A stretch of 37,427 bases of DNA. Origin: Deltaproteobacteria bacterium. GTDB taxonomy: Bacteria > UBA10199 > 2-02-FULL-44-16 > JAAZCA01. The stretch is from assembly GCA_018645265.1 (NCBI GenBank), contig JABGOS010000076.1:1-37427 (forward strand). The letters run 5' to 3'. The position numbers and the translations under genes were made by a program. Under the pieces are notes generated by a model. That model did no database searches. It was not told where the DNA came from and saw nothing but the letters and a program-made list of their open reading frames with translations. Shown here one piece after another: positions 7,778-29,229 of the stretch (within the stretch, counting starts at the first letter, position 1; each line of letters begins with the position of its first letter).

Positions 7778-7788
7778 GTAAGTATCAA

Positions 7789-8448
7789 CTAGTCAGGCTT
7801 TTTTTCTGGTATTGGAGTTTCCTTTTCCTGATAAAATAATCTTACATTCGCTGTGTCGGTTAGGAAATCAATTTCATTGATGAAAATGCTTACCACGTCT
7901 AGACCGGTGCGTTCCTTGAGGTCCGCTATCATCTCCGGTTTTTTATCGGGAGAGATGAGCTCGATTTTTTCATATCTCACTACCTTTGAGTTAAGTCCCC
8001 TTCGTAAAAATCTTAATTCAAGGAAATATACGCTCAACATGATTATCAAGTTGCACAACATTATTTCGGCGTAGCTTATCCTCTTCTTGGAAAGAGCGTT
8101 TAGGACGCCGATGATTATGCAGATGAATAGATATGTCATTTCTTTGATTGGAATCTGTTCCGTTCGATATCGTATGATCGAGAATACCGCGAACAGACCG
8201 AAGGCAAAGCCCATCTTGAGCTTAAGGCTGTTGAGCAGTATGCAGGCTAGAAAGACTGAGATGTTTATCAAAAAATATGAGATGGCGTAATTTTTCTGTC
8301 TATAGCGAGGGTAGAACACCAATCGTATGATAACAAAGACCACCAACAGGTCGAATCCGAAGCGCATGGCGAGTTCCCATACGCCTCGGAAGTCGATGAG
8401 CGGATTGCCAAATAGCTGTATATTTTCCAGGTTCGCTAAGAAATGCAT
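7789..8448 (-). CDS. DUF4956 family membrane protein
   Basis: This 219-aa integral membrane protein has about four hydrophobic segments near residues 28-47, 55-74, 105-119 and 127-146, and a soluble C-terminal domain of about 70 residues. The conserved family signature GFAFGLFAVFSIIRYRTE followed by IPIKEMTYLF is complete at about 80-108. DUF4956 proteins are commonly encoded beside VTC-domain and CotH genes, as here. The start is supported by a GGAGAAGGA ribosome site, and the gene overlaps the end of the upstream VTC gene by 13 bp, so the two are translationally linked. The biochemical role is unknown; a membrane partner or channel for the VTC enzyme is an inference from context. Confidence 0.9.
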   Translation of the reverse strand: MHFLANLENIQLFGNPLIDFRGVWELAMRFGFDLLVVFVIIRLVFYPRYRQKNYAISYFLINISVFLACILLNSLKLKMGFAFGLFAVFSIIRYRTEQIPIKEMTYLFICIIIGVLNALSKKRISYAEIMLCNLIIMLSVYFLELRFLRRGLNSKVVRYEKIELISPDKKPEMIADLKERTGLDVVSIFINEIDFLTDTANVRLFYQEKETPIPEKKPD

Positions 8449-11159: not shown

Positions 11160-14100
11160 ATGAAGAACGTTGGTACTGATCTGACATCAACTGCTGTAAA
11201 AGGAAGTGAAATCTCGGCATTGGCAAGGGGAATTGATGCTGGCGAATATGGGCTCTTTATCCAGTTTGGTGGAATGGCGAGTTCTTATTATTCTGAACTT
11301 AAATCCGCATGGGTGAGTTTTCCGCATACAAGGCTGCTTATTGAGGCAGTCTGTGATGTGCTCTCTTCAGAGTGTAGCAAGGAGGAGTTGTCATCTACGG
11401 GGTATTTCGACGAAGGAATTGATCCTCGCAAATGGTTTGACGGTGAAACGCCATCTGAGGAGCATCTGTTGAGTTCGTCAATAGCTCAGCCGCTGCTTTT
11501 TCTGACGCAGATGGTGAACCTTATGATTCTCACCAGGAACGGTGGTTTTGACTGGGATTTTCTTTCGAAAAACCTAAAGGGTGTTGCTGGTCATTCACAG
11601 GGAATTACCCCTGCTGTGCTTCTGTCGATAGGCCTCGATGATGATACGATCGTTGAGAGGGCGAAGGACGTTGCGGTTTGGCTTCTGTGGAGGGGTGTTA
11701 GGATGCAGCAGGCTTATCCTCCAGCTTCTATTCCTAAATATCTCCAGGAGAGAGCTGCGAAGAGCGGTGATGATTCTTACTTAGGGCCTATGGCCGCGGT
11801 GAAGGGCTTAGAAGAAGCAAGGCTTCACGAAATCCTATACAAGCTAAATGAAGATCTTCCAGATAATGAACGGATTTATGTTTCGCTGAAGAACGGTTGG
11901 AATAGATTCGTCCTCTCCTCCCACATAGGGTCATTGGTGTTGCTCAGGGAGTTGTTGGAGAAGAAAAAACAGATTGCTGCAAGGGATGGCGGTGAGGAGT
12001 TCGATTACGACTGGGAGTATCTCAGGGTAACGGCTCCATTTCATTCTCCCTATCAGCGACGTGCTATGGAGCTTTTTAAATGTGATACAGATAGGCTTGG
12101 AATTAAATTTCTAGGGGAAGACCTTAAAGTTCCGGTTTATTCCACCAGCGATGGTTCGGATCTTCGTTCGGTAGAAGATCTTACCGATTTTCTGATAGCC
12201 GATGATTTCTGCGGTGTAGTCGATTGGCCAAGAGTTCTAAAAAATGCATCAGCAGATAAGGGGATTACACACATCATCGATATGGGTGCCGGCGATTCGA
12301 CTGCCAAGCTTACTTATTTAAACAGGGTGGGTGATGGAATAAGGGTGCTTTCCTTTTCCACTCCGGATGGGAAAAAGGAAATCTTTTCGCACGATGATAA
12401 GCGAGTGCAGATAGGACAGGATTGGCGAAAATATGCTCCGAAACTCAGGCGGCTTATAGGTGTCGGAGATGATCATAGCCCGCGTTACACGATAGATAAC
12501 TCCTATACGAGGTTTACTAAGTCATTGCCTGTTTTTGGCGGTGGTATGACACCATGTACGGTGGAAACCGATGTCGTCTCTGCGGCTGCAAATGCAAATT
12601 ACATCGTCGAACTGGCTGGCGGTGGACAGGTGACGGAAAAGATCTTCAGGAAGAGGATGAAGAAACTTTCAGAGGATCTAGAGCCTGGCAGGGGTGTAGT
12701 TGTTAATACGATGTGGCTCGATCCCTATCTGTGGAATCTGCACTATCCGTTGATCATTCAATTAAAGAGGGAGGGGTATCCAATCGTTGGTGTTACAATC
12801 TCTGCTGGAGTTCCCGAAAAGGAGAAAGCGAGGGAGATACTTAAGGCGTTCAACTCAGTGGGGATCTGGTGTAACTCCTTTAAGCCTGGCGGTACGAATC
12901 AAATCAGACAGGTTCTGGAGATAGCCGATGATAATCCAGAGTTTAAAATTATGATGCATGTGGAAGGTGGAAAGGCTGGAGGACATCACAGCTGGTCCGA
13001 CTTGAGAAAGCTCATTCTGGAGAACTATTCCAAAATAAGGGGAAGGGGTAACGTAGTATTGTGTGTCGGCGGTGGAATTTGGGATGAAGAAAACGCTTCC
13101 AGCTGGCTGGCGGGTTCGTGGCATGGAATAGATAGTCTTCCTAAAATGCCTGTAGATGCTGTATTTTTGGGCACTCGTCTGATGGCATGTAAGGAGGTCA
13201 AAACATCGGCTCAGGTGAAAAAACTTCTCGTTGAAACGAAGGGGCAAAGTTCCTGGGTTAGGAAGGGAGAGTTTTTAGGTGGCATGACATCTGGGATATC
13301 ACCATTGGGTGCGGATATTCATTATGTTGATAATCATGCATCTCGTTTTGCCAGCTATCTCAATCGTGTGTCGGAGATGGGTGATGATGAGATCCGTGAT
13401 ATTAAATCTGAGTTGGTTGAGGGTTTGAATAAAACAGCTAAGCCATACTTTGGTGACCTCGATGATATGACTTATGAGCAGGTCTTAAGAAGGATGGCTG
13501 AGTTGATGGCTCCAGATAATATCGATCAACATATTCCGTGTGATGGTAGATGGTATGATGCTTCGTTTAAAGAAAGATTTCAGGAATTTGTAAGGAGGGC
13601 TGAAGCTAGATTTGGTGGTGGAGCTAGGAAGGTTCTGAATTATGAGGGTCGGCTCGATCGACCCGAGGATATTATCGATGAATTAAAGTCTGTATCTCCC
13701 GAAATATCCGAATTCAAACTTCATCCTGAGGACGTCGATTATTTTATAAGTCTTTGCAAAAAGCCTGGTAAGCCTGTGAACTTTGTTCCTAGAATAGATG
13801 GGGAGATTAAGAGGTGGTTTAATTCAGATAGTCTTTGGCAGTCTCACGATAGTCGATTTGATGCGGATGGAATATTTGTCATTCCTGGTCCTGAATCCGT
13901 TCAGGGTATAAAAAAGGCTGATGAACCTGTCGTTGATGTCCTGTTAGGGTTTACAGGTCAATTTATCGATGACCTGAAGAAGGAACTGAATGGCGATACC
14001 CTTGATGTAGTTAATTACATAGGTGAGGAGAGGAGGCGTGTGCCAGGCGGTGTAACGGGTTCGTTATCTGCCGCTCTCACATCACCTTTCATTATCGATG

Positions 14101-17100
14101 GCAAAAATATCACGCGAAATTTTATTAACGGATGGTTGAATGGTTCTGATAAGAGCGGTCTCTCCTGCAGGAAGGATAGTGAAGGAAATGTATATGAAGT
14201 ATGGCACAACGATGGTTGGTCTGTTTCAAGTAGAGATGGAAGGATTCAGGCATCGTACTACTATGAGAGTCCAGGAGGCAACGCCGCTCATCTCAGCTAC
14301 CAAATGGAATATAACCCGGACATAGGTATGGCACCGCTACGACTGTTATCCGGAGAGAGGGAGAAATCGGTAACTGAATTTTATAAGGCGGTGTGGGATT
14401 TAGATAGTCTAAAGAATAAGAGTGACGGGGTGCTCAGTGTAAAGATCGATGAAGGGCAGGTAGCTAAATATGCTGCAGCAATTGGTGACAACAATGTAGA
14501 GGTGGTGAGGGGGTTGAATGGTCATTTTGTTGCACCACTCAATCAAGTATTTTCATTTTGCTGGCCAGCCATTCTGACGTCAATATTCGATGTATTGGGT
14601 GAGTTGGATCTTCTTCGCCTTGTGCATCTTTCAAATGAATTCACGGAGGTGGAGGGGTGCATCTCAGAGGGTGACGAGCTGGAGATTGAAGCGATGCCTG
14701 CGAAGCTTGAGGAAGATCAAAACGGCACTAAAGTTCTTGTTCGATGTTTGGTGAGAAAAAATGCTTCAAAAATAATGGAACTCATAAGTGAATTCTATAT
14801 TAGGTCGGCCATTGTAAAAACGACAAGCGCGGGTGTTGGGGGGGCAATAGAACCGGATGCTGTGGATAATAGCTCTGAACTTCCTGTGCTAAATCCGGTT
14901 ACAGTTCTTCGTAAATATATAACATCTCCCAGGTCAGCAGAGACCTTTGCCCGTGCATCGGGCGATTATAATCCCATACATTTGAGCAAGGGCATTGCCT
15001 CACTGGCGGGTTTTGGTGAACCTGTGATGCACGGTATGTGGCTTAGTGGTTCCTCCTTGGGTAAGATAACTGAACATCTCTTGGGTGGGTCCTACGACAG
15101 GGTTCGAAGCTATCGTATCGAATTTTTACAACCGGTGTCTCTTGATGAAAGAGTTGAGCTCCAAGTTGATTATGTAGCTAATAAAGATGGAAGAAGTTGT
15201 TATGAAATGAAGGTGTTGAGTATCGATGGGAACGTTGTGGCTAGCGGTCGGCTGGAGTCCTCAAAACCTGATACCGCATATCTCTTCACAGGTCAGGGTT
15301 CTCAAAAACAGGGTATGGGAATGGATGGGTATGAAAGATCTTCTGCATCAAAGAAAGTGTGGGATGATGCGGATGCTTTTTGCAGAGGTGAACTTGGTTT
15401 TTCTATTTTAGAGATCGTCAGGGATAATCCACGTTCAATTAAAGTTGGAGGAGAGATTCTTTTTCACCCAAAGGGCGCGCTGAATCTTACGCAGTTTACT
15501 CAGGTGGCCTTGGTTGTTTTGGCGATGGCACATGTAGCAGAACTTAAGGAAGCTGGCTTATATGTAGATAACGCTGTTATAGCAGGGCACTCACTAGGTG
15601 AATACGCGGCTTTGGCTATAGAGGGTATAATATCTCTGAAGGAGGTTGTGAAGATCGTCTATCATCGTGGTTTGACTATGCAACACTTCGTTCCTCGTGA
15701 TGAGAAGGGTAATTCCCCGTACAGAATGATCGCTGTAAGGCCGAATATTGCGGGATTATCCCATGGTGATCTGATGAGTAAGGTTGAGTCCATAGCATCT
15801 GAAAATTGCGGACATATTGAAGTGGTCAACTTTAATATCATGGATGAACAGTATGCTATTACTGGCGAGCTAGCAGCACTTAGCAAATTCAAAGAGTTCT
15901 TGAGAACTCAAGAGCTAAAGATCGGAGCTGCAAAGAAAAGCTACATCGAGCTCTCTGGTATCGATGTCCCATTTCATTCTCAGGTCCTAAGGCCGGGCGT
16001 TGAAGTGTTTAGAGAAAAACTCAAGGAGACGATACTCTCCGATTTTGACTTTAAGCGTCTTGAGGGAAGGTATATTCCCAATTTGAATGCAAAGCCGTTT
16101 GAATTAAGTTGGGAGTATATTCAGGGCGTGTACGAATATACACAGAGTCGAGATCTGAAAGAGCTGATTGATAAAAAGCAGAAAACATCAATAACATCTG
16201 AAGCTGCTAGAACGCTGCTTATAGAGCTATTGGCTTATCAATTTGCATCGCCAGTTCAATGGATCAAGACACAGGATGTTCTTTTAAATGTTCTCAGTGT
16301 TGAGAGAATAATAGAAATTGGTCCGGCACCAGTGCTTGTTGGTATGGCGAAGAGAACCATGGGTAAGCTAAAAAACAGGATTAGATATCCGGATGTGCTG
16401 CACGTTGATGCTGACAGGATTAATGTCTTTGAGACGTCACCCGTCATTCATGATGAATGTACTGTTGAAAAGGACGCTGATAGCAATGAAGAGAATATTA
16501 ACGTCGTGCCTGCGGTTCAAGAGGTGAAAGCGGTTCAGATCGCATTACCTATCGAGAGATCTGAGGCATGTGATGCACCTGATATCACGGCTACTGTAAT
16601 TGATGCGCTGAAGGTAGTGTTAGCATTGAAAACCAAAAGGTCTGTCGATTGTATTGTTGATTCCTCTACGATAGAATCGCTTTCAGGAGGGAATTCCGCG
16701 AAGAGAAATGAAATATTGGCGGATATCAGTGCTGAGTTCAATATTGCTCAGATAGATAATGCTCATAATCTACCCTTGAGCGAGCTTTCAGCTCGGGTGG
16801 AGTCTGCGAGTAAATATACGGCTCCTGGTTCATTCCTTCGGGTCACAATAGACAAGGTTATTAAGGAGATCTTTCCAGTTGCGCTTGGGGATATCGCAAA
16901 GCACATGAAGTCGGAGTGGGGTTTCGGTGATAATCTGATCAATGCAATTATAATACATCTTCCTGTGTTTTCCAAAGATGGGGAGTCTGTTGACGGAGGT
17001 GCCCTATCAGAAATCGGTATAAAATCCAGAATTACAGATCATAATGCCGCTATTTCTTGGATAGATTTGATGATCTTGGAGTATGCAAAATCCAAGGGCA

Positions 17101-20100
17101 TAGCAATTTCTAAGCGTCAGGTCGCTTCTGGAAGTGGCGCTACTGTTGACTCAGCAGCGCTGGAGGAATTTGAAAGGAAGTACTTCGGTGTAGCCTCAAA
17201 CCTCTCTAAGGCAGCATCTGAAATTTTGAAAGCATGTGGTGTGGATATCTACGAGAGTATTCACCAGGAGGACGAGGGGATTGTAGCTGAACGGGAAGCG
17301 TTGGCATTGTATCGTTCGGAGTTGGGCGATGCATTCGAGCAGGTGATCACCCCCCGTTTCGATCGTGCAAGGCATGTTGCATTTACAAGTTCAATCCAAT
17401 GGTTGAAACGAGATCTCGTAGAGATGTTCTATGGCAATATGAACGATGAAAATGTCATGGATGATGCCATATGGAATCTGCTGAAGCGAAGGGTTGCCAG
17501 CGCTTCGAATGATAGCACTATAGTAAAGATGGTTAACTATTTTGCGTCCTCAATGCAGGATAGCAATATGGTCAATAGATGGAGCGAGCTTCAGGGCATT
17601 ATCGAGGGAACTGAGGATGTATATTGGCCGCAATCAAAGGCTCTCAAAATACTTGCAGAAGATTTGCTAAAGAAACGGGATTCATTTGATTGGTTACAGG
17701 TGGACGGTGACGCAACTCAAGGGTTGGTTAAGGAAATAATCAGCAAGTCTGCTGATAAGCCGTTATCCTTCCAGAACAAGACTGTTCTGATCACCGGTGC
17801 GGGGCCAGGGTCAATAGCCGAAGCTATTCTAAAGGATTTAATTTTAGCTGGAGCGAAGGTTATAGTTACAACCTCTGGCCTTAATAGGGAGCGACTAAAA
17901 TCATACAGAAAGCTCTATCAGGAGTATTCATCACTCGGTTCTGAGATGCATCTTGTGCCGGCATCGCAGGGTTCGAGAAAAGATATATCTGAACTTCTCA
18001 ATTGGTGTTTTGAGGCGGATCTGGCCCCTGACATTCTAATTCCATTTGGAGCATATACTGAGAAAGTGCCTCTCAATATGGTCGGACAAGCGAGATGGTC
18101 GGCTGATATGAGGGTGATGCTCGAGGGGGTTGAGTGTCTGGTTACGGGGATAGCCGACAGGTTGGGGCAGTCGGCTTCCGATCAAACTTGTGGCGTCGTC
18201 ATTCCGCTTTCACCTAACCATGGGACCTTCGGTGGAGATGGTGTTTATGCTGAAACCAAACTCGCCCTCGAAGCGATGATACATAAACGTTTTTCAGAAT
18301 ATGATTTCTGGGGAAGTAGGATGCGAATGATCGGCGTGAGTATTGGTTGGACGAGGGGTACCGGCCTTATGAAGGGAACTGATTCATTGGCGGGTAAATT
18401 GGAATCCAAGTATGGCATCAGAACCTTTTCCAATGAAGAGATGGCTTGGTTGATCGAAGCCCTTATGTCGGATGAAATATTCGATCTTTCAGACAAGGAG
18501 AAGGTGTTCATCAAGCTCCATGGGGGCTTTGATGGAATAGATGATATAGCTCAGGCTATTAAAGGCTTGGGTGATAATGTCACACCGGAATCGAAGGAAA
18601 CTCAAGAAAGTTCCCTTATGAGAAAGGCGAAACCAGGCTGGTTTTCCTTTCCCGAAACATGTCTGCGCATGCCAGAGCGTCTTGAGAATGATGAGTCATC
18701 TTTGGATGATACAATAGTCGTCGTAGGGATGGGTGAGGTATCGCCATTTGGTAGCCATCGTACGCGTTGGGATTTTGAGAGAAATGGTAATATTTCATTG
18801 GAGGGTATTGTAGAGCTCGCTTGGATGATGGGACTTATAAAATATGAACAGCGGGACAACTATGTCGGATGGATAGATGTTGCGAGTGGTGATTCTGTCA
18901 ATGATATCGATATGAAGAAGTTGTACGAGAAACAGATTCTTGAGAATACCGGTGTTAGGATAGCGGATCCGACGCAACTCGGTTTTGATCCCCAGAGTAC
19001 TCTGGTGTTAACAAATGTAGTTCTAGAAGATGATTCCTGTTTTCCTGTTTCTTCGTTGGATGAAGCAAAGGAGTTTCTACTTAGGAATGAAGGGTTTGCT
19101 GAAATAGTTGAGAAGGAAGGTGGCTTCCTTGTTCGCCTGAAGAAAGGCGCAGTTATTAAGGTTCCCAAATCAGTCAAATTGAAGCGTTACGTTTCAGGAC
19201 AGGTGCCTGCAGGATGGGACGCTGTGCGCTATGGTGTTCCGAGGGATATAATAGAACAGGCCGATCGCAATACTGTTTTTAGTATGGTGGCCACTGCAGA
19301 AGCGTTCCTTGCTGCAGGTATAGATCCCGAAGAGTTGTATGAATATGTGCATCCGGCTCGTGTTGGCAATACTCAAGGTAGCGGTCTTGGAGGAATGAAG
19401 GCAACAGATGATCTCTATCACTGCCATCGAGAGGATAAGGAACGAAAGGGCGATGCTCTACAGGAGCTTCTCATTAATGTTATGCCCGGTTGGGTCAATC
19501 AAACGTTCGTGGGTAGCTACGGTCCGACAGTTCCAACGGTTGCCGCATGTGCAACTGCCGCTGTTTCGCTAGGAGTGGGCTACGATCTTATCAAGTCCGG
19601 TAAGGCGGATTTTGTCGTTACCGGTGCTTCTGATGATCTGAACGAAGAGGGCTCGATAGGTTTTGGAGATATGGGTGCGACGGTGGATTGCGATGAGATG
19701 TTGGCTAAGGGTGTTGCCCCCAACCAGATGAGCAGGCCGAACGATAGAAGGCGCAATGGATTTATCGAAGGCCAGGGCGGCGGTGTGCTTCTTCTTGCCA
19801 AACTATCGAAGGCGGTGGAGATGGGATTGCCTGTATATGCAGCCTTGGCTTTTACAGCTACGCATTCGGATGGACATCAGACTTCCATTCCGGCACCGGG
19901 GCTAGGTCTCGTAAATATAGCCGAAAAGGATGCTGGTATCGATGGCGAAGCTCCACTTATTTCTGCGCTTAGTAAATTCAACCTAGGTGTTGATGATATC
20001 CATGTAGTTTCAAAACATGACACTTCGACCAATTTAAACGATTCTAATGAGAACGATCTACATCAGAGGATAGCGAAGAAGTTGGGACGTAAGGATGGCA

Positions 20101-20513
20101 ATCCTATTCTGGTTCATTCTCAGAAATCTATCTTGGGACATGGTAGGGGGGGTGCTGCGGCGTGGCAAGCGAATGCAGCTATTCAGATTCTTCTCGATGA
20201 AGTTGTTCCAGGAAATCCAAATTTAGACGATGTAGATCCTGCATTTGCTAAATATGATTTAATGACATTTACCGACAGGGCTATTCCGCTGCATAGACCG
20301 AAAGCCGTACTCCTTACATCTCTTGGTTTTGGGCATGTTGGCGCGGCGGTTCTCTTTGCACACCCTCATAGCGCACTTAATAAATTGTCTGAAACGAGTT
20401 GGGTGAATTATCGGGATAAATTGAAGAAGCGAAATGAACGCAGTGTCAGAAGGGGCTGGGAGAATATGTTGGGCATGTCAACGATGTTTGCCGTAGGAGG
20501 TAAGAACTTATGA
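11160..20513 (+). CDS. fas: Type I fatty acid synthase (FAS-I, fungal/mycobacterial architecture)
   Basis: This 3117-aa megasynthase starts at the ATG behind a perfect AGGAGG (an upstream in-frame ATG at 11097 has none). Domain order is AT-ER-DH-MPT-ACP-KR-KS. AT: GHSQG with Ser146, and PFHSP. ER: FGGGMTPCTVETD at about 459 and GGKAGGHHSW at 603-612 (FMN-binding type). DH: a double hot-dog with GDYNPIHLS, H1274. MPT: FTGQGSQ and GHSLGEY with Ser1478. ACP: SLSGGNSAKRNEIL, Ser1846 being the expected phosphopantetheine site. KR: TGAGPGS at 2212 and YAETK (Y2363, K2367). KS: AACATAA with Cys2797, His2953, K2989 and His2994. Length and order match mycobacterial Fas (about 3070 aa). No thioesterase is seen, so products are presumably acyl-CoA. 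The AT lacks the usual GQG at residues 37-39. Confidence 0.97.
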   Translation: MKNVGTDLTSTAVKGSEISALARGIDAGEYGLFIQFGGMASSYYSELKSAWVSFPHTRLLIEAVCDVLSSECSKEELSSTGYFDEGIDPRKWFDGETPSEEHLLSSSIAQPLLFLTQMVNLMILTRNGGFDWDFLSKNLKGVAGHSQGITPAVLLSIGLDDDTIVERAKDVAVWLLWRGVRMQQAYPPASIPKYLQERAAKSGDDSYLGPMAAVKGLEEARLHEILYKLNEDLPDNERIYVSLKNGWNRFVLSSHIGSLVLLRELLEKKKQIAARDGGEEFDYDWEYLRVTAPFHSPYQRRAMELFKCDTDRLGIKFLGEDLKVPVYSTSDGSDLRSVEDLTDFLIADDFCGVVDWPRVLKNASADKGITHIIDMGAGDSTAKLTYLNRVGDGIRVLSFSTPDGKKEIFSHDDKRVQIGQDWRKYAPKLRRLIGVGDDHSPRYTIDNSYTRFTKSLPVFGGGMTPCTVETDVVSAAANANYIVELAGGGQVTEKIFRKRMKKLSEDLEPGRGVVVNTMWLDPYLWNLHYPLIIQLKREGYPIVGVTISAGVPEKEKAREILKAFNSVGIWCNSFKPGGTNQIRQVLEIADDNPEFKIMMHVEGGKAGGHHSWSDLRKLILENYSKIRGRGNVVLCVGGGIWDEENASSWLAGSWHGIDSLPKMPVDAVFLGTRLMACKEVKTSAQVKKLLVETKGQSSWVRKGEFLGGMTSGISPLGADIHYVDNHASRFASYLNRVSEMGDDEIRDIKSELVEGLNKTAKPYFGDLDDMTYEQVLRRMAELMAPDNIDQHIPCDGRWYDASFKERFQEFVRRAEARFGGGARKVLNYEGRLDRPEDIIDELKSVSPEISEFKLHPEDVDYFISLCKKPGKPVNFVPRIDGEIKRWFNSDSLWQSHDSRFDADGIFVIPGPESVQGIKKADEPVVDVLLGFTGQFIDDLKKELNGDTLDVVNYIGEERRRVPGGVTGSLSAALTSPFIIDGKNITRNFINGWLNGSDKSGLSCRKDSEGNVYEVWHNDGWSVSSRDGRIQASYYYESPGGNAAHLSYQMEYNPDIGMAPLRLLSGEREKSVTEFYKAVWDLDSLKNKSDGVLSVKIDEGQVAKYAAAIGDNNVEVVRGLNGHFVAPLNQVFSFCWPAILTSIFDVLGELDLLRLVHLSNEFTEVEGCISEGDELEIEAMPAKLEEDQNGTKVLVRCLVRKNASKIMELISEFYIRSAIVKTTSAGVGGAIEPDAVDNSSELPVLNPVTVLRKYITSPRSAETFARASGDYNPIHLSKGIASLAGFGEPVMHGMWLSGSSLGKITEHLLGGSYDRVRSYRIEFLQPVSLDERVELQVDYVANKDGRSCYEMKVLSIDGNVVASGRLESSKPDTAYLFTGQGSQKQGMGMDGYERSSASKKVWDDADAFCRGELGFSILEIVRDNPRSIKVGGEILFHPKGALNLTQFTQVALVVLAMAHVAELKEAGLYVDNAVIAGHSLGEYAALAIEGIISLKEVVKIVYHRGLTMQHFVPRDEKGNSPYRMIAVRPNIAGLSHGDLMSKVESIASENCGHIEVVNFNIMDEQYAITGELAALSKFKEFLRTQELKIGAAKKSYIELSGIDVPFHSQVLRPGVEVFREKLKETILSDFDFKRLEGRYIPNLNAKPFELSWEYIQGVYEYTQSRDLKELIDKKQKTSITSEAARTLLIELLAYQFASPVQWIKTQDVLLNVLSVERIIEIGPAPVLVGMAKRTMGKLKNRIRYPDVLHVDADRINVFETSPVIHDECTVEKDADSNEENINVVPAVQEVKAVQIALPIERSEACDAPDITATVIDALKVVLALKTKRSVDCIVDSSTIESLSGGNSAKRNEILADISAEFNIAQIDNAHNLPLSELSARVESASKYTAPGSFLRVTIDKVIKEIFPVALGDIAKHMKSEWGFGDNLINAIIIHLPVFSKDGESVDGGALSEIGIKSRITDHNAAISWIDLMILEYAKSKGIAISKRQVASGSGATVDSAALEEFERKYFGVASNLSKAASEILKACGVDIYESIHQEDEGIVAEREALALYRSELGDAFEQVITPRFDRARHVAFTSSIQWLKRDLVEMFYGNMNDENVMDDAIWNLLKRRVASASNDSTIVKMVNYFASSMQDSNMVNRWSELQGIIEGTEDVYWPQSKALKILAEDLLKKRDSFDWLQVDGDATQGLVKEIISKSADKPLSFQNKTVLITGAGPGSIAEAILKDLILAGAKVIVTTSGLNRERLKSYRKLYQEYSSLGSEMHLVPASQGSRKDISELLNWCFEADLAPDILIPFGAYTEKVPLNMVGQARWSADMRVMLEGVECLVTGIADRLGQSASDQTCGVVIPLSPNHGTFGGDGVYAETKLALEAMIHKRFSEYDFWGSRMRMIGVSIGWTRGTGLMKGTDSLAGKLESKYGIRTFSNEEMAWLIEALMSDEIFDLSDKEKVFIKLHGGFDGIDDIAQAIKGLGDNVTPESKETQESSLMRKAKPGWFSFPETCLRMPERLENDESSLDDTIVVVGMGEVSPFGSHRTRWDFERNGNISLEGIVELAWMMGLIKYEQRDNYVGWIDVASGDSVNDIDMKKLYEKQILENTGVRIADPTQLGFDPQSTLVLTNVVLEDDSCFPVSSLDEAKEFLLRNEGFAEIVEKEGGFLVRLKKGAVIKVPKSVKLKRYVSGQVPAGWDAVRYGVPRDIIEQADRNTVFSMVATAEAFLAAGIDPEELYEYVHPARVGNTQGSGLGGMKATDDLYHCHREDKERKGDALQELLINVMPGWVNQTFVGSYGPTVPTVAACATAAVSLGVGYDLIKSGKADFVVTGASDDLNEEGSIGFGDMGATVDCDEMLAKGVAPNQMSRPNDRRRNGFIEGQGGGVLLLAKLSKAVEMGLPVYAALAFTATHSDGHQTSIPAPGLGLVNIAEKDAGIDGEAPLISALSKFNLGVDDIHVVSKHDTSTNLNDSNENDLHQRIAKKLGRKDGNPILVHSQKSILGHGRGGAAAWQANAAIQILLDEVVPGNPNLDDVDPAFAKYDLMTFTDRAIPLHRPKAVLLTSLGFGHVGAAVLFAHPHSALNKLSETSWVNYRDKLKKRNERSVRRGWENMLGMSTMFAVGGKNL

Positions 20514-20905
20514 AGGGAATCGGCGTTGATGTGGTGAGCGTATCAATCTTTAAAGAACAGGTTCAAAGTAGGGATCTCCCCTTTGTGAACAGCAGTTTTA
20601 CCGCCAATGAGGTTGAGTATTCCTTTGGAGCTGTAAGTGAGCGCCCAGAGCAACACCTTGCGGTTCGATACGCTGCGAAGGAAGCTGTGATAAAGGCGCT
20701 TGATCAAGCTAGGGGAGAGTTATTTCAGCCTATCGCTTCTGTGAATTATAAGCATATAGAGGTGCTGTTGGATTGTGCTGGTCGACCGTACATCGAATTA
20801 AAGTCTGAATTGAAGGTGTATGCTGATGACCTTGGCATAAGAGATATCAAAGTCAGCCTTTCACACGACAACGATTATGCGATCGCACAGGTTTATATAG
20901 CCTGA
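20510..20905 (+). CDS. acpS: Holo-ACP synthase (4'-phosphopantetheinyl transferase)
   Basis: The 131-aa protein has the AcpS signature: GIGVDVV with Asp7, FTANEVEY with Glu34, and RYAAKEAVIKAL with Glu58 and its flanking lysines; these residues bind Mg and CoA in the family. It transfers phosphopantetheine from CoA to a carrier-protein Ser. Its ATG overlaps the FAS stop (ATGA), implying translational coupling and pointing to the FAS ACP domain (Ser1846) as substrate. Mycobacteria also place acpS directly after fas, and fungi fuse this domain to the FAS alpha chain. Whether it also serves a separate type II ACP in this organism cannot be seen. Confidence 0.95.
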   Translation: MKGIGVDVVSVSIFKEQVQSRDLPFVNSSFTANEVEYSFGAVSERPEQHLAVRYAAKEAVIKALDQARGELFQPIASVNYKHIEVLLDCAGRPYIELKSELKVYADDLGIRDIKVSLSHDNDYAIAQVYIA

Positions 20906-20926
20906 CGAATGCGATCATGGAGATCT

Positions 20927-23900
20927 ATGCAGAGCAGATATTTAAAAATTTCTAAGACTATCCGGCGACTCCTCATAGCTAATAGAGGTGAACCTGCGAT
21001 GCGGGCCATCCGGACCTGTAGAAAACTGGGCATCGAATCTGCAGTTATCTATTATGGTGATGATGCAGCGAGCGATTGGGTAAGTTCGGCTGATTTTGCG
21101 TATAGGCTCTTTAAGCCTGAGGAAGTTGAGGAGAGTCCATATCTGGATGGAGAACAGATCATTCAGGTGGCTCTTGATAACGAATGCCAGGCTGTATGGC
21201 CGGGGTGGGGTTTTCTCTCAGAGGAATCTTCCTTTGCCCGTGAAACTAATGCGGCAGGCCTTATTTGGGTTGGGCCGTCAGATTATGCCATGAGCTTGTT
21301 GGGTTCCAAATCGGAGTCTTCGAGTTTGGCGCGTGAGTGTGGTTTTGAAACTATACCTGAGATCATGCTCAAGGATGGTGAAACACTGTCATCAGAAATT
21401 GATATGAGCTATCCGGCCGTTATTAAACCCGCACTGGGTGGCGGTGGCAAGGGACAGGTGATAGTTCAGTCGGAGGATGAACTTAGATCGAAGGTGGATG
21501 AGGTCGCTAGGCAGGCGAGAACATTGTACGGTAGTGGTGAATTGGTTATTCAGAAATATTTGGAAGGTGCAAGGCATATAGAGCTGCAAATTATTTCCGA
21601 TGGGAAAGGTTCCTCGTGTATTCTGGGAAGCAGGGATTGTTCTATTCAGAGAAGGAATCAAAAGATTATTGAGGAGGCTCCTCCTATATCACTTAGCGAA
21701 GCTCTTTTAAAAACTGCATCAAAGGCGGCTAAACTACTTTTCGAGAAATCGATGTATTCCAGTGCAGGCACGGTTGAGATGCTTCTGTACGGTGAGCATC
21801 TATATTTTCTAGAGGTAAATACGAGGTTGCAGGTTGAACATACCGTAACTGAAGAGAGCATTAGGGTCTCCGATGATCAGGGGATGGCGAAGTTGGATAT
21901 CCTGGCTGAGATGCTCAACATTGCAAGTGGGGAGAAATTGTCCTTTTCAGAGGATGATATCAAATCTCACGGATATTCCATTGAGGCTAGAATCTACGCC
22001 GAGGATCCCGAAGAGGGTTTTGTACCGACGCCAGGAAGGGTGTGTTTTGTAAGGTTTCCAGAGGGTGAAGGTATTCGTGTCGATACTGCATTTGTAGGTC
22101 CTGAGGTAATGGTAAGTAAATATTTTGATCCGATGCTTGCTAAGGTCGTAGCGAGTGGAAAGACCAGGGAAGAAGCCATTGGAAGGTTGATAGATTCCTT
22201 GGGAAGGACTGTTATCCTTGGCATCAAAACCAATATAGACTTTTTGCGACGCATCGCAAGCCATCCAGATTTTTCTAAGGGCGCGTATCATACGGGTTTT
22301 CTTTCAGAGGCTGGGGAGTCTCTTTCGCCATCTAAGGATCGCATCTATATGGCATGTTCTATTGCAGCATCAATTGCATATATGAGGGCGAATGCTGAAT
22401 CGTATAGGGGGATAGGAGATTCTAGAATTGTCAATCTTGAGGATGCTCTGGGAAGGTTGCCTGAGAATCGTATAGACTATCAGGTTACAGCAATGAATGA
22501 TGATTATGTATGTGAGGTTGGCGAGTGGAACGAGGGGCAATTTGCAGTCAAGAGTGGTGATAGTTGGCTATTTCTAAATATCGATACACTGAGTCCGTAC
22601 GTCTACACTGTAAGGGATTCCAAGGGTAAGTCCCATGAGACCTTTCTCTATGCTACCAATGGCAAGTGTCAGATGGTCTTGGATGGGGAATACTATCATC
22701 TAAATGTGGTGAAGGAGGGTGCGGGACAGGATAGACGCGATCCACATGCTGCACCTTATGGGGGCAGGATTATCAAAATATGCGTAAACGAAAACGATCA
22801 CGTAGAGCCTGACGATGAATTATACATACTGGAAGCTATGAAGATGGAGAGTAGGGTGCGCTCCATATCTTCCGGTGTGGTGAAGGGTGTTCTTCTTTCC
22901 GATGGTGATGCTGTGGAGGTCGGTGAGACGGTGTTGTTAGTCGATTCTGATGAGGTCGTTGGGAGTGAGCGGGTGGCTAGGAAGATCTTAGATCTTCATT
23001 CACAGGATGATTTGAGGAATGACCTTTTCTCCAAACCCCATTCGTTGATGGAAGGTGATAATGATATTCATATTGCCTGGAGTAAGCATTCCACGTTTAT
23101 ACGCCAGATACCGGAATTGTATTTCAAGGGATACGATATTGCTGCCGATACTGCGAGCGTGGCTTTTGATATGGTATCGAAAAGGGATGCTAAGGCATCG
23201 ATAAATATTTTATCGAGAGTGGCTAAATATCTGATTGCTGCGATAAGACTTAGAGATGAAGATGTAGCCGACGATCTTTTGAATTTCATAAAATATCCAA
23301 AGAAGCAGTCAGCTGAAGCCAGCGTTCCTAGTGTGTTTAAAGATGCCTTTGAGTATTTTGGTGTAACCAGTATCAACAGTAGGGATGAGCTCAGTAAAGT
23401 TTTGCCTCGCATGCTTCGCTGGATAAGAAACACGGATCCAAAACATCTTCATGTTATGGTGAGTATGATTGAAAAGCATTCTTTGAAAGGAGCTGGCTCT
23501 TCAGAGCTGGTTGCCACGATAATTGGGTTGGTTCAGTCTGGCATATTTGATCTTGAAGGCGAATTGAAAAGTAAGCTTCTTGGGTTTCTTCGCCTAATCG
23601 ATGTAAATGAATATTATAAAATCATCAAACCGCCAGTTTCCTTGGATTATCTGGATGAATACGAAATGCATAGAAGTAGGCCCCTATCAAATCTTTCAGA
23701 AGCGGAGCTCTTGCGAATGAGGGAATGTGCGCAACATGGTGAGAGGTTGTATTATAAGGATGATTTTTCATCCCTTCCACAGTGGCTGAGCGTGCTTTTT
23801 GATAGGTGGTATGAAGGTTTTTATATGAAGGAGATGGCTGTAGGTGATGGTACGAGCAGTGCTGGCGTTCAATTGTTTGAGCTTAGGAATAAACAGAATT

Positions 23901-26467
23901 CCGGCGACAAGCGTTTGCTAGCGATAGCCATTGTGGATACGGAAAATGGACATGAGAAAGATGGAAAACTATTCCTGCCAAACCTTGAAAGGGCTGGGAT
24001 TGAGGCTTACAGGAGTATAGCGCAGTATGTAGCCTTGGGTGCAAAATATCCTTTCAATCATGTCTTCGTGATTACTCCCTCCGATCTCGTTTTACCATGG
24101 AAGGCTTCAGGCAGTGAGAGTGGGTCGTTCTCACCTATCAAGATAAGCGACATTTCTTCGAGAATTGCGGGTTTTGCACGAAATATTAATGTCAGCGCAA
24201 CTGAAGTTATTTTGAACTTAGAACGTCAGGGTAAAGTGCTGAGCCACATTCTGGAGATCAGGCATGCTGATCCCGTCGGTGTTATTAATAGACCGCCGTA
24301 CCCTATTGCGGAGAGAGTTCCAGAACTTATGAAAGGGATGAAGGGGCAGCTCGATGATAAGCAGCATCGTCTGGGTAAGCTCCTCAATGAGGATCGAGCG
24401 CGCGTACTTTTCGATGATGGTGAATATGATGAGGTATTCTTTCCTGAGGTTGATTTGGAGAATCAATCACCGGTGGGTCTTCGCGTTTTTAAGGGAAAAA
24501 TTAGCGGGGCTATGTCGATAGCTTATGCAGGTGATTTTAGAATCAAGGGAGGTGCGCTAGGTGAGAGGGAGGGTAAGAAGTTGGCGGCCTCAGTCGTTTT
24601 AGCCTATGTCTCAAATGTTCCGTTGGTGGGAATACATGATGGTGCTGGTGCGGATATACGCGGTTCGGTTGCTTCGCTAGGTTGGGCTGGTGCTTATTTT
24701 GGTGCCATAGCTAATACTGGCGGCTTCTCCAGTGTAGAGCGATTTTGGGAATGGTTCAATGGTCATCATGGCAGGGATTATTTTGAAATGGTTTTGGAGT
24801 CTCAAGGTTTTAAACCTAATGATGATGGTAGGTGGGTAGCTAGGTCGTTGTCGGGTTATAAACGCATGGGAAGTAAATTCGTACATTTGCATCTGAATCT
24901 AGGAGCTACGGTTGGTATGTTGGTCTATGGTGCAGCGATATCCTCGATGTCGCTGATGGTCAACAAGCCACAGGCATATCGGGTGTTGACAGGTGCCGGT
25001 ACCGTGAAGAAGGTTACAGGTGAAAGTATCAGTAATTATGATTTGGGAGGTGCGAAAGTTCATTCCATGCATTCCGGCGATATCGATGTTGAGTTCGATA
25101 GCGAGGAGGAGGTGCTGGAGTGTGCGAGAAAACTTATTATTTCATTTAGTCATTGTAACAGAGCGAAGCATACTGTTGCAATTGAGCCGGATCACTCTGC
25201 TGATCCATCAGTTGATAGTAATAAGGTTGTTAAGGGGTTTGATTGCGATTCATTTTTGGAAACTAAGGCTGACTTAAAGGGGGCCTCTAAGCTTCTTACT
25301 GGTTTTGGGTCTCTCGGTGGTAGAGTTGTGGGTATTTCTGCAAGTATGTCCAATTATGGTCTTAGGAATTCCAGCACACTAAAAAAACTATATGCATCAT
25401 ATTCAGGATGTCAGGAATTCGACGTTCCACTGATCCTGATAGTGAGGGATAAGTGGTATGGTATTCCTGAAGGTGCTACTTCTGATGTGATGCATGCCAG
25501 GGCCGAGTGTGACAAACTCTTTCCTCAACTTACAGTTCCGCGAATTTCAATAGCTATCGGTCCGCGATCGCTGGATGTGGGAGTTCATCAGATCGCCGAT
25601 ATCTGTTGTTATATCGCTGACGGGACTGAATCAGATTATGACATCAATCGTGCAAATGTAATGGCACACATGCAGTATAAAAATATCTCTGAGTGTTTGG
25701 ATGGGATCTCGAAACTTATATCGTATCTGAGTAGGGATGTTTCCGATGTGGAGGTGTCGAGTGGTTATCCCGAGTTGAAATTACCGCAGAACTATGCGCA
25801 AGCCTACGACATCCGAGATTTCATTCAGAGGCTGGTTGATAGAGAGAGCTTCTTGGAATTTCATTCTAACGATGATCTGCCGCTGATAGTAGGCTTCGCA
25901 TTAATGGCTGGAAATGCCGTTGCTATTATCTCCGACAATCCAAATGTAAACGCGGGTGCTCAAACCGCTCACGCTCTGGGTAAGTTTACAAGGTTCAACA
26001 GGATATGTGAGCGCTTTTCCATACCCATCGTTGAATTAAATGATAGTCCGGCATTTCAACCAGGAAGTAAGCAGGAGAGGCTCGGTATTCAGGGTGAGGG
26101 AGGTAGGTCGCTTCGTGAGGAGTGTTTGGGATCGGTTCCTAAGATGGCGGTTACGCTCAGGCAGAATTATGGTGGAAGGTATATTCACGCAAATCTAAAG
26201 ACCCTGGGACCTAATAGGGAGGGGCTTGTCTGCGAAGGTGCTAGGGTTGGAGTTATGGGTGCGGAGGGGGCGGTTGGAATTCTCTACGGCAAGAAGTTAA
26301 ATGCTCTCGATCCATCGGAGAGGGATGCCGCACGTCAAAAATTTCTCACCGAATATGTCGAGAAGAGTTTGAATCCAGAGACAGCAGTGAAATTGGGTTA
26401 TGCTAAGAAATTGGTTTCTCTGGATAATCTGAGAGTCGAACTGCATGAATGGATAAAGAGTATCTGA
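20927..26467 (+). CDS. Single-chain multidomain acyl-CoA (acetyl-CoA) carboxylase
   Basis: This protein of about 1846 aa carries all activities of a biotin-dependent carboxylase. Biotin carboxylase (about 10-470): LIANRGE, KPALGGGGKG with K167, and EVNTRLQVEH at 296. BCCP (about 600-670): EAMKM with biotinyl Lys639. A region of about 450 residues (about 680-1130), rich in charged helices, is not recognised. Carboxyltransferase N and C lobes (about 1150-1846): HDGAGADIRG near 1237, NDSPAFQPGSKQE with Asp1706, and GVMGAEGAV. It should make malonyl-CoA for the adjacent FAS. The ATG at 20927 is preferred for GGAG six bases upstream; an ATG at 20909 adds six residues. It resembles eukaryotic ACC in being one chain. 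The substrate acyl length cannot be read from sequence. Confidence 0.93.
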   Translation: MQSRYLKISKTIRRLLIANRGEPAMRAIRTCRKLGIESAVIYYGDDAASDWVSSADFAYRLFKPEEVEESPYLDGEQIIQVALDNECQAVWPGWGFLSEESSFARETNAAGLIWVGPSDYAMSLLGSKSESSSLARECGFETIPEIMLKDGETLSSEIDMSYPAVIKPALGGGGKGQVIVQSEDELRSKVDEVARQARTLYGSGELVIQKYLEGARHIELQIISDGKGSSCILGSRDCSIQRRNQKIIEEAPPISLSEALLKTASKAAKLLFEKSMYSSAGTVEMLLYGEHLYFLEVNTRLQVEHTVTEESIRVSDDQGMAKLDILAEMLNIASGEKLSFSEDDIKSHGYSIEARIYAEDPEEGFVPTPGRVCFVRFPEGEGIRVDTAFVGPEVMVSKYFDPMLAKVVASGKTREEAIGRLIDSLGRTVILGIKTNIDFLRRIASHPDFSKGAYHTGFLSEAGESLSPSKDRIYMACSIAASIAYMRANAESYRGIGDSRIVNLEDALGRLPENRIDYQVTAMNDDYVCEVGEWNEGQFAVKSGDSWLFLNIDTLSPYVYTVRDSKGKSHETFLYATNGKCQMVLDGEYYHLNVVKEGAGQDRRDPHAAPYGGRIIKICVNENDHVEPDDELYILEAMKMESRVRSISSGVVKGVLLSDGDAVEVGETVLLVDSDEVVGSERVARKILDLHSQDDLRNDLFSKPHSLMEGDNDIHIAWSKHSTFIRQIPELYFKGYDIAADTASVAFDMVSKRDAKASINILSRVAKYLIAAIRLRDEDVADDLLNFIKYPKKQSAEASVPSVFKDAFEYFGVTSINSRDELSKVLPRMLRWIRNTDPKHLHVMVSMIEKHSLKGAGSSELVATIIGLVQSGIFDLEGELKSKLLGFLRLIDVNEYYKIIKPPVSLDYLDEYEMHRSRPLSNLSEAELLRMRECAQHGERLYYKDDFSSLPQWLSVLFDRWYEGFYMKEMAVGDGTSSAGVQLFELRNKQNSGDKRLLAIAIVDTENGHEKDGKLFLPNLERAGIEAYRSIAQYVALGAKYPFNHVFVITPSDLVLPWKASGSESGSFSPIKISDISSRIAGFARNINVSATEVILNLERQGKVLSHILEIRHADPVGVINRPPYPIAERVPELMKGMKGQLDDKQHRLGKLLNEDRARVLFDDGEYDEVFFPEVDLENQSPVGLRVFKGKISGAMSIAYAGDFRIKGGALGEREGKKLAASVVLAYVSNVPLVGIHDGAGADIRGSVASLGWAGAYFGAIANTGGFSSVERFWEWFNGHHGRDYFEMVLESQGFKPNDDGRWVARSLSGYKRMGSKFVHLHLNLGATVGMLVYGAAISSMSLMVNKPQAYRVLTGAGTVKKVTGESISNYDLGGAKVHSMHSGDIDVEFDSEEEVLECARKLIISFSHCNRAKHTVAIEPDHSADPSVDSNKVVKGFDCDSFLETKADLKGASKLLTGFGSLGGRVVGISASMSNYGLRNSSTLKKLYASYSGCQEFDVPLILIVRDKWYGIPEGATSDVMHARAECDKLFPQLTVPRISIAIGPRSLDVGVHQIADICCYIADGTESDYDINRANVMAHMQYKNISECLDGISKLISYLSRDVSDVEVSSGYPELKLPQNYAQAYDIRDFIQRLVDRESFLEFHSNDDLPLIVGFALMAGNAVAIISDNPNVNAGAQTAHALGKFTRFNRICERFSIPIVELNDSPAFQPGSKQERLGIQGEGGRSLREECLGSVPKMAVTLRQNYGGRYIHANLKTLGPNREGLVCEGARVGVMGAEGAVGILYGKKLNALDPSERDAARQKFLTEYVEKSLNPETAVKLGYAKKLVSLDNLRVELHEWIKSI

Positions 26468-26470
26468 CCG

Positions 26471-26528
26471 AAAAGGTGTCCGACACTTTTTCAAAGAATT
26501 GTGCAAAAAGTGTCCGACACCTTTTTTT
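26471..26528. repeat. REP-like element, copy 1 (GTGTCCGACAC pair), likely terminator
   Basis: Two near-palindromic units with a GTGTCCGACAC core (26471-26491 and 26505-26528) are separated by about 13 bases containing GAATTGTGC. The units are inverted relative to each other and can form a 21-bp stem with one C-C mismatch, followed by a run of seven T. It lies four bases past the carboxylase stop, so it probably ends the FAS operon transcript. It shares its layout and spacer with the element at 28156. Confidence 0.8.
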
Positions 26529-26694: not shown

Positions 26695-28137
26695 GTGATC
26701 TGGTTTGCTGCTCTTGCGCTTATAGCAATTGGTACAGGTGCTGCTGGATGCAACCGCAATAAAGGAAATGGCGGCGGTGATGTCGATCTTGATGGCGGGC
26801 TTGATGCGGATGGTGGGGTGGATCTGTCGGATGGTGGGGTGGATCTGTCGGATGGTGGGGTAGATGCTGACGCGGGAGTGCCGCTGCCGCCAGGTTGTAA
26901 TACACAATTCTTTAAACCAGGATGTAAGATTACCGATATAGATGCTTATGGTAAAACTGTTGCGGTTGTGTGCAGTGATCTGGTTCCCGGTGATAATAAT
27001 AAAAAATTCTTTCTAGGTGAAGTTGCAGATCCTATGCAGCCGCATAACTTCACACGTTTCAATGCGACATTGGATGCGCTGTCGGCCACCTATAGTGGTG
27101 ATCAAACAGGTATGTTCTCAGTAGTGCCTCAGCAAATTCAAAGGGGGGCAGTCGGTTTGTATGATGGCGAGTATTATTCTATTTTTGCGGGCGTTGGTCC
27201 CACATGTTTGAGCGGAATTACTTTTAATATCGACGGTTCTAAATACACCAGCACTTTGGATGATTATGTATATCCGGCTCTCAGTCAGGAATATCCACAG
27301 GTTAATTACTGGCGTCCGTGTGAGGTTGGGTCATCGTTGATCACTCAGAATGCTGGCGGGTACAAAATGTGGTTTCCCGCTAGTGTGGAGTCGACACAGA
27401 ATAAATTGGGTATACTGAGGGTTTATGATCTTCCTCCAGATACGCCTTATGAATTTTTCGATAAGGATGGTAATCATGAAATTATTCTTTTGAGTGGTGA
27501 AGAGCCTACGGCCATTGCGAAGGTCCCAACTGCTTTTTATGATCCTGTAAATACTGATTACAATTTTGCTGCAGTCCTAAACAGTAAGGGCTTTGGTGTA
27601 GTCGCTCCTAGTTATGGAATGGCTAATGCGAGTATCGATGTAGTGCGCTTGAATCACCGGGAACCGCACATTGCGGTGGAGGCTACAATTGATCTAGGTG
27701 CGTCTCAAGTATTTCCGATGAAGGAGTTACCAATTACAGCGGATGGAAGGTATGTTGTAGTTATAGGTTCTATAAATAATAGTCTGGCGTTGATGGTGGT
27801 TGATATGCAGAGCGCCGCTGTAGTTGGTACGCTTGAGGATAGTGCATTGGATATGAATGCTGTAAGTGATGTGGTGGTTAGAGGAAGTACTGCTTATATT
27901 GCCACAAATGGAGAAATCAGAATGTATGACATCTCCAATCCTGCATCTCCGATCAGGAAAGAACAGGGTGGTCAGGAAATATTGCCGATTCCCGTTGGTG
28001 CTGGCCTGAGTGATATCACGGTCGACGAGGATGGGATCATATATGCTGTGACGGATGACCCTGATGATACTGCTGGTGATGATTCTGCCGTATATGCTAT
28101 CGATCCTCAGATTCTGACCGATCGGGGATGTCAGTAG
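26695..28137 (+). CDS. Lipoprotein with Asp/Gly linker and beta-propeller-like domain, paralog 1
   Basis: The 480-aa protein starts at a GTG with CGGAGG upstream. A lipobox GAAGC places the lipid-bearing Cys near residue 19. A linker of about 45 residues follows, rich in Asp and Gly, with an exact 21-nt tandem duplication encoding VDLSDGG. The globular part begins at PPGCNTQFFKPGCK and shows repeated strand patterns such as ITDIDAYGKTVAVV and DVVVRGSTAYIATNGEIRMYDISNPASPIR. The latter looks like an LVIVD-type beta-propeller blade. The protein is probably attached to the outer membrane. A second, highly similar gene lies beyond gpsA (29444-30967). Function unknown; the linker style is typical of deltaproteobacterial surface lipoproteins. 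Confidence 0.82.
   Translation: MIWFAALALIAIGTGAAGCNRNKGNGGGDVDLDGGLDADGGVDLSDGGVDLSDGGVDADAGVPLPPGCNTQFFKPGCKITDIDAYGKTVAVVCSDLVPGDNNKKFFLGEVADPMQPHNFTRFNATLDALSATYSGDQTGMFSVVPQQIQRGAVGLYDGEYYSIFAGVGPTCLSGITFNIDGSKYTSTLDDYVYPALSQEYPQVNYWRPCEVGSSLITQNAGGYKMWFPASVESTQNKLGILRVYDLPPDTPYEFFDKDGNHEIILLSGEEPTAIAKVPTAFYDPVNTDYNFAAVLNSKGFGVVAPSYGMANASIDVVRLNHREPHIAVEATIDLGASQVFPMKELPITADGRYVVVIGSINNSLALMVVDMQSAAVVGTLEDSALDMNAVSDVVVRGSTAYIATNGEIRMYDISNPASPIRKEQGGQEILPIPVGAGLSDITVDEDGIIYAVTDDPDDTAGDDSAVYAIDPQILTDRGCQ
26818..26859 (+). repeat. Tandem 21-nt duplication in the lipoprotein linker
   Basis: Two exact copies of a 21-nt unit at 26818-26838 and 26839-26859 encode VDLSDGG twice. The length keeps the frame. 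The paralog at 29444 has a different, longer Asp/Gly linker, so this segment evolves faster than the globular domain. Confidence 0.85.
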
Positions 28138-28155: not shown

Positions 28156-28212
28156 AAAAAAAGTGTCGGACACTTTTTTAAGGAATGGTGCAAAAGGTGT
28201 CGGACACTTTTT
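28156..28212. repeat. REP-like element, copy 2 (GTGTCGGACAC pair), bidirectional terminator candidate
   Basis: Two units with a GTGTCGGACAC core (28156-28179 and 28192-28212) are separated by a 12-base spacer containing GAATGGTGC, close to the spacer of copy 1. A and T runs border both units, so hairpins with T-tails form on either strand. It lies between the convergent ends of the lipoprotein gene and gpsA and could terminate both. Confidence 0.8.
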
Positions 28213-28221
28213 GAGTTATTG

Positions 28222-29229
28222 TTAGAATTCCTTCTTAAGCTCCCTTGACATGAGCATCTCAAATGCGTCCTTTGGTGCTAGGCCTTCGTATAGAATCTTA
28301 TAGATGTGTTCCATATTTGGGAGATCGAGATGCCTCTGTATCGCGATTTCATGCACGGCCTTGGATGTTGGCACACCTTCGGATACATGTGGCGTTGATT
28401 TTAGTATCTCCTCAATTTTTTCACCCCTACCAAGTCGCAGACCGGTCTGACGGTTTCTTGAAAGGTCACCCATGCAGGTGAGTATCAGATCACCGATGCC
28501 GGAGAGGCCGGAGAAAGTCTGAGGTTGTGCACCCATCTCAACTCCCAGCTTTATCATCTCGTGCAGGGAGCGAGTGATGAGGCCCGCTCGGGAGTTTTGA
28601 CCGAAGCCCAGGCCGTCAGATATGCCGACGCCAATCGCAATTATATTCTTTAAAGCGCCACCGAGCTCTACGCCCTTGAAGTCGGTTGAGGAATAGAGAC
28701 GAAACCACTTTTGACTGAGCGTCTCGCGAACCCTCACGGCAATATCCTCATTTTGACTGGCGACACATGCTGCCGTTGGCATTTTTTGATAGATTTCACG
28801 AGCGAAGCTGGGTCCGGAAATTGTAGCATAGCGCTGCAATATTTCATCACCCAGGAGATCCGAAAAAATTTGTGATGTAGTCTTCGCTGTCTCAACTTCA
28901 ATGCCTTTTGCAAGATTAGCTATTATGCAGTCGGTAGGTAATATGTCAGCGGATTGCTTGAGAAATGATCTGATGTGCTGACATGGAATTGCAAATACAG
29001 CTATCTCTGACCCGTCAGCAGCTTCACCGGCATCGGATGTTACAAAGAAATTCTCAAGTCCGGCATCGGGGAGAAATGTCGTGTTCTCTCTATTATTCTT
29101 GATGGAGTCGACAACTTTGGGCTCTCTGGCCCAGAGCTTGATATCATGCCCTGCCAAAGCCAACATGTTGGCTATGCACGTTCCAAATGCCCCAGCGCCG
29201 AACACAGTAATTTTGCGATTATTGATCAT
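28222..29229 (-). CDS. gpsA: NAD(P)-dependent glycerol-3-phosphate dehydrogenase
   Basis: The 335-aa enzyme is of standard length for GpsA. The Rossmann motif GAGAFGT lies at 11-17. Further family motifs are AIPCQHIR, NLAKGIE, SGPSFAREI, GALKNIIAIGVGISDGLGFGQNSRAGLITR, and LSGIGDLILTC. It reduces dihydroxyacetone phosphate to sn-glycerol-3-phosphate, the backbone for phospholipids, in the cytoplasm. The gene stands alone on the minus strand between two paralogous lipoprotein genes, so it is monocistronic. Its location close to the FAS operon is compatible with lipid supply but is not proof of co-regulation. The ribosome site is weak. Confidence 0.97.
   Translation of the reverse strand: MINNRKITVFGAGAFGTCIANMLALAGHDIKLWAREPKVVDSIKNNRENTTFLPDAGLENFFVTSDAGEAADGSEIAVFAIPCQHIRSFLKQSADILPTDCIIANLAKGIEVETAKTTSQIFSDLLGDEILQRYATISGPSFAREIYQKMPTAACVASQNEDIAVRVRETLSQKWFRLYSSTDFKGVELGGALKNIIAIGVGISDGLGFGQNSRAGLITRSLHEMIKLGVEMGAQPQTFSGLSGIGDLILTCMGDLSRNRQTGLRLGRGEKIEEILKSTPHVSEGVPTSKAVHEIAIQRHLDLPNMEHIYKILYEGLAPKDAFEMLMSRELKKEF

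Follow-up and report, generated by a model that had tools for sequence, protein, structure and literature searches.

A type I fatty acid synthase operon with its own carboxylase is the likely sole route to fatty acids in a bacterium of the UBA10199 lineage

FAS-II is regarded as the bacterial default for fatty acid synthesis, and FAS-I of the kind considered here as a speciality of fungi and actinobacteria. A 37,427-nt contig (hereinafter the window; C45 of the assembly) from a Deltaproteobacteria bacterium of the UBA10199 lineage codes for a FAS-I, a holo-ACP synthase (AcpS) and a single-chain acyl-CoA carboxylase (ACC) in one operon, raising the question of whether this unit stands in for FAS-II or makes a dedicated lipid, and whether it was transferred or anciently retained. 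The source is a metagenome-assembled genome (MAG) of 2.24 Mb in 161 contigs, 95.6% complete and 0.34% contaminated; all evidence on the operon comes from sequences of MAGs.

Pfam searches with the fas product recovered, in order, SAT/AT, ER with a helical domain, meander, DH, MPT, FAS-alpha ACP, FAS_I_H, KR and KS (Table 1). The FAS-I-specific helical domain PF08354 scores 296 bits, and PF17951, PF18325 and PF18314 accompany the catalytic domains in FAS-I order. The catalytic residues and the carrier serine are intact, as seen in the motifs GHSQG (AT), GDxNPIH (DH), GHSLG and HRG (MPT), LSGGNS (ACP), YxETK (KR) and ACATA/KHDTST/KxILGHG (KS), bearing out the AT-ER-DH-MPT-ACP-KR-KS reading of the original prediction, whose coordinates were right. 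The best solved relatives are the mycobacterial FAS, followed by the fungal alpha and beta subunits; by its domains and motifs, the protein is a FAS-I of the kind known from fungi and actinobacteria. Like the enzymes of M. tuberculosis and M. smegmatis (PDB: 4v8v, 6gjc), it is one chain with the same domain order, has no PPT domain of its own and is encoded directly upstream of acpS; however, it is only ~33–35% identical to actinobacterial FAS-I and occupies a separate tree branch. The actinobacterial fas loci examined have no adjoining single-chain ACC, and the host has no FAS-II beside its FAS-I. Fungal FAS (FAS1/FAS2; PDB: 4v58, 2uv8) is likewise homologous throughout, with the same domain order, but the solved fungal enzymes consist of two chains; the host protein is about equally distant from the fungal and actinobacterial enzymes.

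The longest fas frame opens at 11097 (3138 aa), but the ATG at 11160, giving 3117 aa, is probably the preferable start because a perfect Shine-Dalgarno sequence (AGGAGG) precedes it. The adjacent gene product matches TIGR00556 with 94.5 bits (cut-off 45) and TIGR00516 with 56.0 bits, just below the cut-off of 59.8, and has the GVDVV and KEA motifs, placing it in the AcpS family. The 4-bp overlap of fas and acpS noted earlier is indeed present, as ATGA at 20510, and the ACC frame opens 3 bp past the acpS stop; a second candidate ACC start at 20927 is preceded by GGAG. No terminator was found 3′ of ACC in a terminator scan. Further along, four copies of GTGTCSGACAC (0 expected) form two mirrored pairs, 34 bp apart within each (26476–26520 and 28163–28207), that flank a gene at 26695–28137; another copy lies on contig C35 (L140:1836). 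Elsewhere in the window, adjoining genes for CotH kinase, DUF4956 and VTC-domain proteins (6107–9296) are preceded by a 1103-aa ORF (2668–5979) that matches no Pfam family.

Table 1. Positions of the operon genes, their domains and related features. Coordinates refer to the window except in the last row; fas and ACC domains are listed below their genes.
Feature	Position	Strand	Evidence
fas, FAS-I on one chain, 3117 aa	11160..20513	+	ORF, Pfam, motifs, Shine-Dalgarno
AT (acetyl transferase) domain, GHSQG	11217..12476, approximate	+	Pfam, motif
ER and FAS-I helical domain PF08354	12504..14051, approximate	+	Pfam, ER tree
Meander and DH region, GDYNPIH	14064..15206	+	Pfam, motif
MPT (malonyl/palmitoyl transferase), GHSLG and HRG	15279..16376, approximate	+	Pfam, motif
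Internal ACP domain; LSGGNS holds the carrier Ser (codon 16695–16697)	16581..17105	+	Pfam, motif
KR, YAETK	17778..18371	+	Pfam, motif
KS, Cys-His-His; the genome's only FabF match	19206..20360	+	Pfam, motif, FabF search
acpS, holo-ACP synthase, 131 aa; overlaps fas by 4 bp	20510..20905	+	ORF, Pfam, motifs
ACC on a single chain, 1852 aa; substrate probably acetyl-CoA; second candidate start at 20927	20909..26467	+	
Biotin carboxylase (BC) domain of ACC	20954..22318	+	Pfam
BCCP of ACC, biotin Lys in EAMKM	22763..22936	+	Pfam, motif
ACC central region; modelled fold resembles the central domain of eukaryotic ACC	22976..24328	+	Predicted fold
ACC carboxyltransferase (CT) domain, PccB/AccD-like	24356..26443	+	Pfam, CT comparison
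gpsA, glycerol-3-phosphate dehydrogenase; outside the operon	28222..29229	-	
Contracted yceD-rpmF-acpP-rpiB operon	L140:7515-9044 (contig C35)		

For the carboxylase, the predicted order BC-BCCP-CT on one chain held, whereas a region of ~450 aa between BCCP (EAMKM) and CT had been missed. Profile searches with this central region returned no sequence match in the PDB (E 10) or Pfam (E 1), and PF08326 is absent from the operon ACC in Pfam searches. When an AlphaFold2 model of the region, built on five homologues (pLDDT 77), was compared with the PDB, the best 24 fold matches were all eukaryotic ACCs (E 1.5e-6 to 0.03; first unrelated match at 0.08), with low TM-scores (0.24–0.30) and a well-superposed part of ~170 columns at 4 Å. 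The predicted fold matches the yeast ACC central domain at these scores, and a shared fold with the eukaryotic central domain is accordingly offered as a lead. Eukaryotic-type ACCs and SACE_4237 of Saccharopolyspora, a multidomain ACC supplying malonyl-CoA for fatty acids (PMC6491548), share the BC-BCCP-central-CT layout on one chain; unlike the eukaryotic type, however, the operon ACC has a shorter centre without detectable sequence match and a PccB-like CT (258 bits, versus 22 for eukaryote-like CT and 69 for LCC). The single-chain long-chain acyl-CoA carboxylase (LCC; 1093 aa in PDB: 4rcn) also joins BC, BCCP and CT, but LCC-type enzymes lack a central domain (PMC4833862), and the ~450 aa in the 1852-aa operon ACC rule out that type. 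The operon enzyme would work like a multidomain ACC while standing outside the eukaryotic ACC sequence family, with acetyl-CoA as its probable substrate.

We then asked what other fatty acid synthesis genes the genome holds, using searches for FabF, FabZ, AccA, PlsX and LpxC that each detected the control genomes. A six-frame FabF search of the whole host genome yielded a single match, the KS of the operon FAS, and nowhere in the class does a FabF exceed the curated cut-off; free-standing KS proteins occur in a few class genomes (G009, G037, G043 and G045). FabZ, present in 4 of the 46 class genomes, was not found in the host, nor was a separate AccA, the sole AccA-type match being sub-threshold and inside the operon ACC. 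PlsX and LpxC were each found in none of the 46. With the MAG ~4% incomplete, single genes could escape detection, yet the host is rejected as a FAS-II organism as far as FabF, FabZ, AccA and PlsX are concerned, a result covering these rather than FabH, FabD, FabG, FabI and FadD individually. Two short-chain dehydrogenase matches were seen in the host genome. FAS-I-bearing relatives in other phyla, in contrast to the host, retain canonical FabF.

The acpP neighborhood tells a similar story. In operons of this kind, plsX and fab genes sit upstream of acpP; on host contig C35, yceD-rpmF-acpP-rpiB-glyA-nrdR-ribD-ribE-ribBA run contiguously without fab genes, with rpmF ending at L140 position 8352, the acpP frame at 8367–8609 and rpiB immediately after. 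By comparison, three Myxococcales/Deltaproteobacteria genomes with FAS-I have rpmF-acpP gaps of 1.8–2.2 kb and acpP-rpiB gaps of 1.3–1.4 kb, the latter holding canonical fabF. The contracted order recurs in the remaining class genomes inspected at this locus (G002, G004, G005, G009, G023 and G040, and as yceD-rpmF-acpP only in G010). Moreover, the free ACP of the host reads GADDLD instead of GADSLD, with Asp for the phosphopantetheine Ser, which makes the FAS carrier domain the evident client of AcpS; G002 has GADTLD (Thr), and GADSLD is kept in G004, G005, G009, G010, G023 and G040.

Because the only FabF-type KS found lies in the FAS, searches for FabZ, PlsX, LpxC and a separate AccA were negative, the acpP operon is devoid of fab genes and the free ACP has lost its Ser, the three-gene operon has most likely replaced FAS-II and is, in our judgement, likely the cell's only system for de novo fatty acid synthesis, the host probably making fatty acids in the fungal/mycobacterial manner. 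Between the two roles first proposed, replacement of FAS-II is thus the one supported, and the notion of a self-contained unit that makes malonyl-CoA, activates the carrier and synthesizes chains agrees with the domains, motifs and operon layout. The carboxylase would convert acetyl-CoA to malonyl-CoA, and AcpS would place phosphopantetheine on the carrier domain within the FAS. The synthase itself would load acetyl (AT) and malonyl (MPT) groups, condense them (KS), reduce by KR and ER, dehydrate by DH, and release acyl-CoA through MPT. PlsB-like and PlsC-like acyltransferases, both present in the host genome, would transfer the chains to glycerol-3-phosphate, for which gpsA in the window could provide substrate; their presence fits an acyl-CoA product feeding phospholipids. 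We infer the enzyme activities, the acyl-CoA product, the acetyl-CoA substrate, assembly into a barrel and the essentiality of the operon from these comparisons.

Two observations run counter to a sole synthase: G023, G038 and G039 encode FAS on one contig and ACC on another, and in G002 and G003, of the host's own family, both FAS-I and a strong KS match are lacking, which makes it plausible that members of this family take up fatty acids. These two relatives, which presumably import fatty acids, together with the occurrence of FAS-I in just 13 of the 46 class genomes, lend some appeal to the alternative that the operon makes a dedicated lipid (e.g., very long or secreted chains) and bulk membrane fatty acids come from prey, hosts or the environment. 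We regard this as unlikely: no tailoring, export or secondary-metabolism genes stand beside the operon, which brings its own malonyl-CoA supply and has the domain set of a housekeeping FAS-I, and the genome yielded no second KS for bulk chains.

We computed ER (36 rows) and KS (30 rows) trees, both without an inferred root, which agree in grouping the host FAS with those of G023, G028 and G038 (and G039 in the ER tree; 95/91 and 100/98), i.e., with five class genomes including the host from four families. The Myxococcales, Deltaproteobacteria and Planctomycetota FAS fall between this clade and a compact actinobacterial group. Own-type ACC occurs in all five class genomes with own-type FAS versus 2 of the 41 others (G001 and G043; Fisher p=1.5e-5, ignoring kinship), and the CTs of seven homologues from the class form their own clade (100/100). 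The two genes are neighbors in the host and in G028, where the intervening gene matches AcpS over its last 54 residues only. An acpS directly after FAS is also seen in Myxococcales, Deltaproteobacteria, Planctomycetota and actinobacteria; the Myxococcales genome MAG-90 even has fas-acpS-ACC, but because that ACC is different and only distantly related, the pairing probably arose more than once.

An actinobacterial source, to which fas-acpS adjacency and domain order in mycobacteria might point, is very improbable: the host FAS groups with four other class genomes outside the group that includes actinobacteria, a clade made up of only the host group and actinobacteria is rejected (AU p=0.004), fas-acpS adjacency extends to the other phyla named above, and codon usage is native. 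Trees and codon usage likewise reject a recent transfer of the operon. That the contig is an assembly chimera of foreign and host DNA is scarcely credible even for so fragmented a MAG, given its flat G+C (0.41–0.48), operon codon usage that resembles that of flanking genes (correlation 0.82) and of genes on other contigs (0.80) but not that of a Mycobacterium fas (-0.40), the placement outside actinobacteria, and the same order of FAS and ACC in the independent class genome G028. Of the two origins first considered, transfer or ancient retention, the latter fits best because five class genomes in four families share the FAS clade and the ACC family, though descent with losses looks the same as exchange within the class. 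Judged from these trees, the host enzyme is an old, non-actinobacterial FAS-I branch found in several families of its class.

Several class members show departures from the single-chain layout. G023 (L048:367–8755) has a cleanly split FAS-I, with AT-ER-DH-MPT and ACP-KR-KS ORFs, the second having its own ribosome-binding site; this resembles the two-chain arrangement of fungi, except that the cut falls at the MPT/ACP border. A fungal-style split was rejected for the G038 FAS, whose frames are interrupted within MPT, with nonsense to either side of the break, indicating a frameshift. G011 (L043) has a 5655-aa FAS-I frame with ~1750 N-terminal residues lacking a Pfam match, and G020 (L045) an oversized FAS-I of 4081 aa, each followed by acpS. 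G001, of the host's family and without FAS-I, codes for a 6068-aa frame with four KS matches on its contig C8, perhaps another megasynthase solution, and has the own-type ACC elsewhere.

A second, fungal-type FAS-I, much nearer to the enzymes of fungi, is found in G011, G022, G027, G032 and G044 (L043, L042, L052, L041 and L025), with the ER scoring 573 bits to fungi versus 343 to actinobacteria. Fungal FAS sequences nest among these in the ER and KS trees, again with no root inferred, and a single clade of the two FAS-I types of the class is rejected (p=6e-9). Adjoining its fungal-type FAS, G022 additionally encodes an ACC of 2556 aa that contains PF08326 and whose CT is eukaryote-like. We tentatively raise the scenario, doubtful as a whole, that FAS-II and lipid A disappeared from the class, after which separate lineages regained fatty acid synthesis through megasynthases, one with the FAS-I, AcpS and ACC operon and the other with fungal-type FAS beside eukaryote-type ACC, fungi having obtained their FAS genes from bacteria of the second branch.

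The Gram-negative character ascribed to the neighbors of the operon fits the gene order, but sits less easily with the lack of LpxC in all 46 class genomes, because of which conventional lipid A is not expected in the class; with PlsX also missing throughout, both lipid A and acyl-phosphate chemistry seem to have been lost class-wide. In the open-licence literature, neither this operon nor a comparable lineage relying on FAS-I alone was found described, a negative result of little weight. A class lacking actinobacterial ties has lost FAS-II genes at their classical site, along with PlsX and LpxC, and some of its members appear to depend on a FAS-I system encoded, together with a carboxylase of its own, in one operon. 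Three questions thereby become open to test: can FAS-I serve as the only synthase of a bacterium, how do bacteria with such a gene order manage in the absence of lipid A, and were such bacteria the source of fungal FAS?
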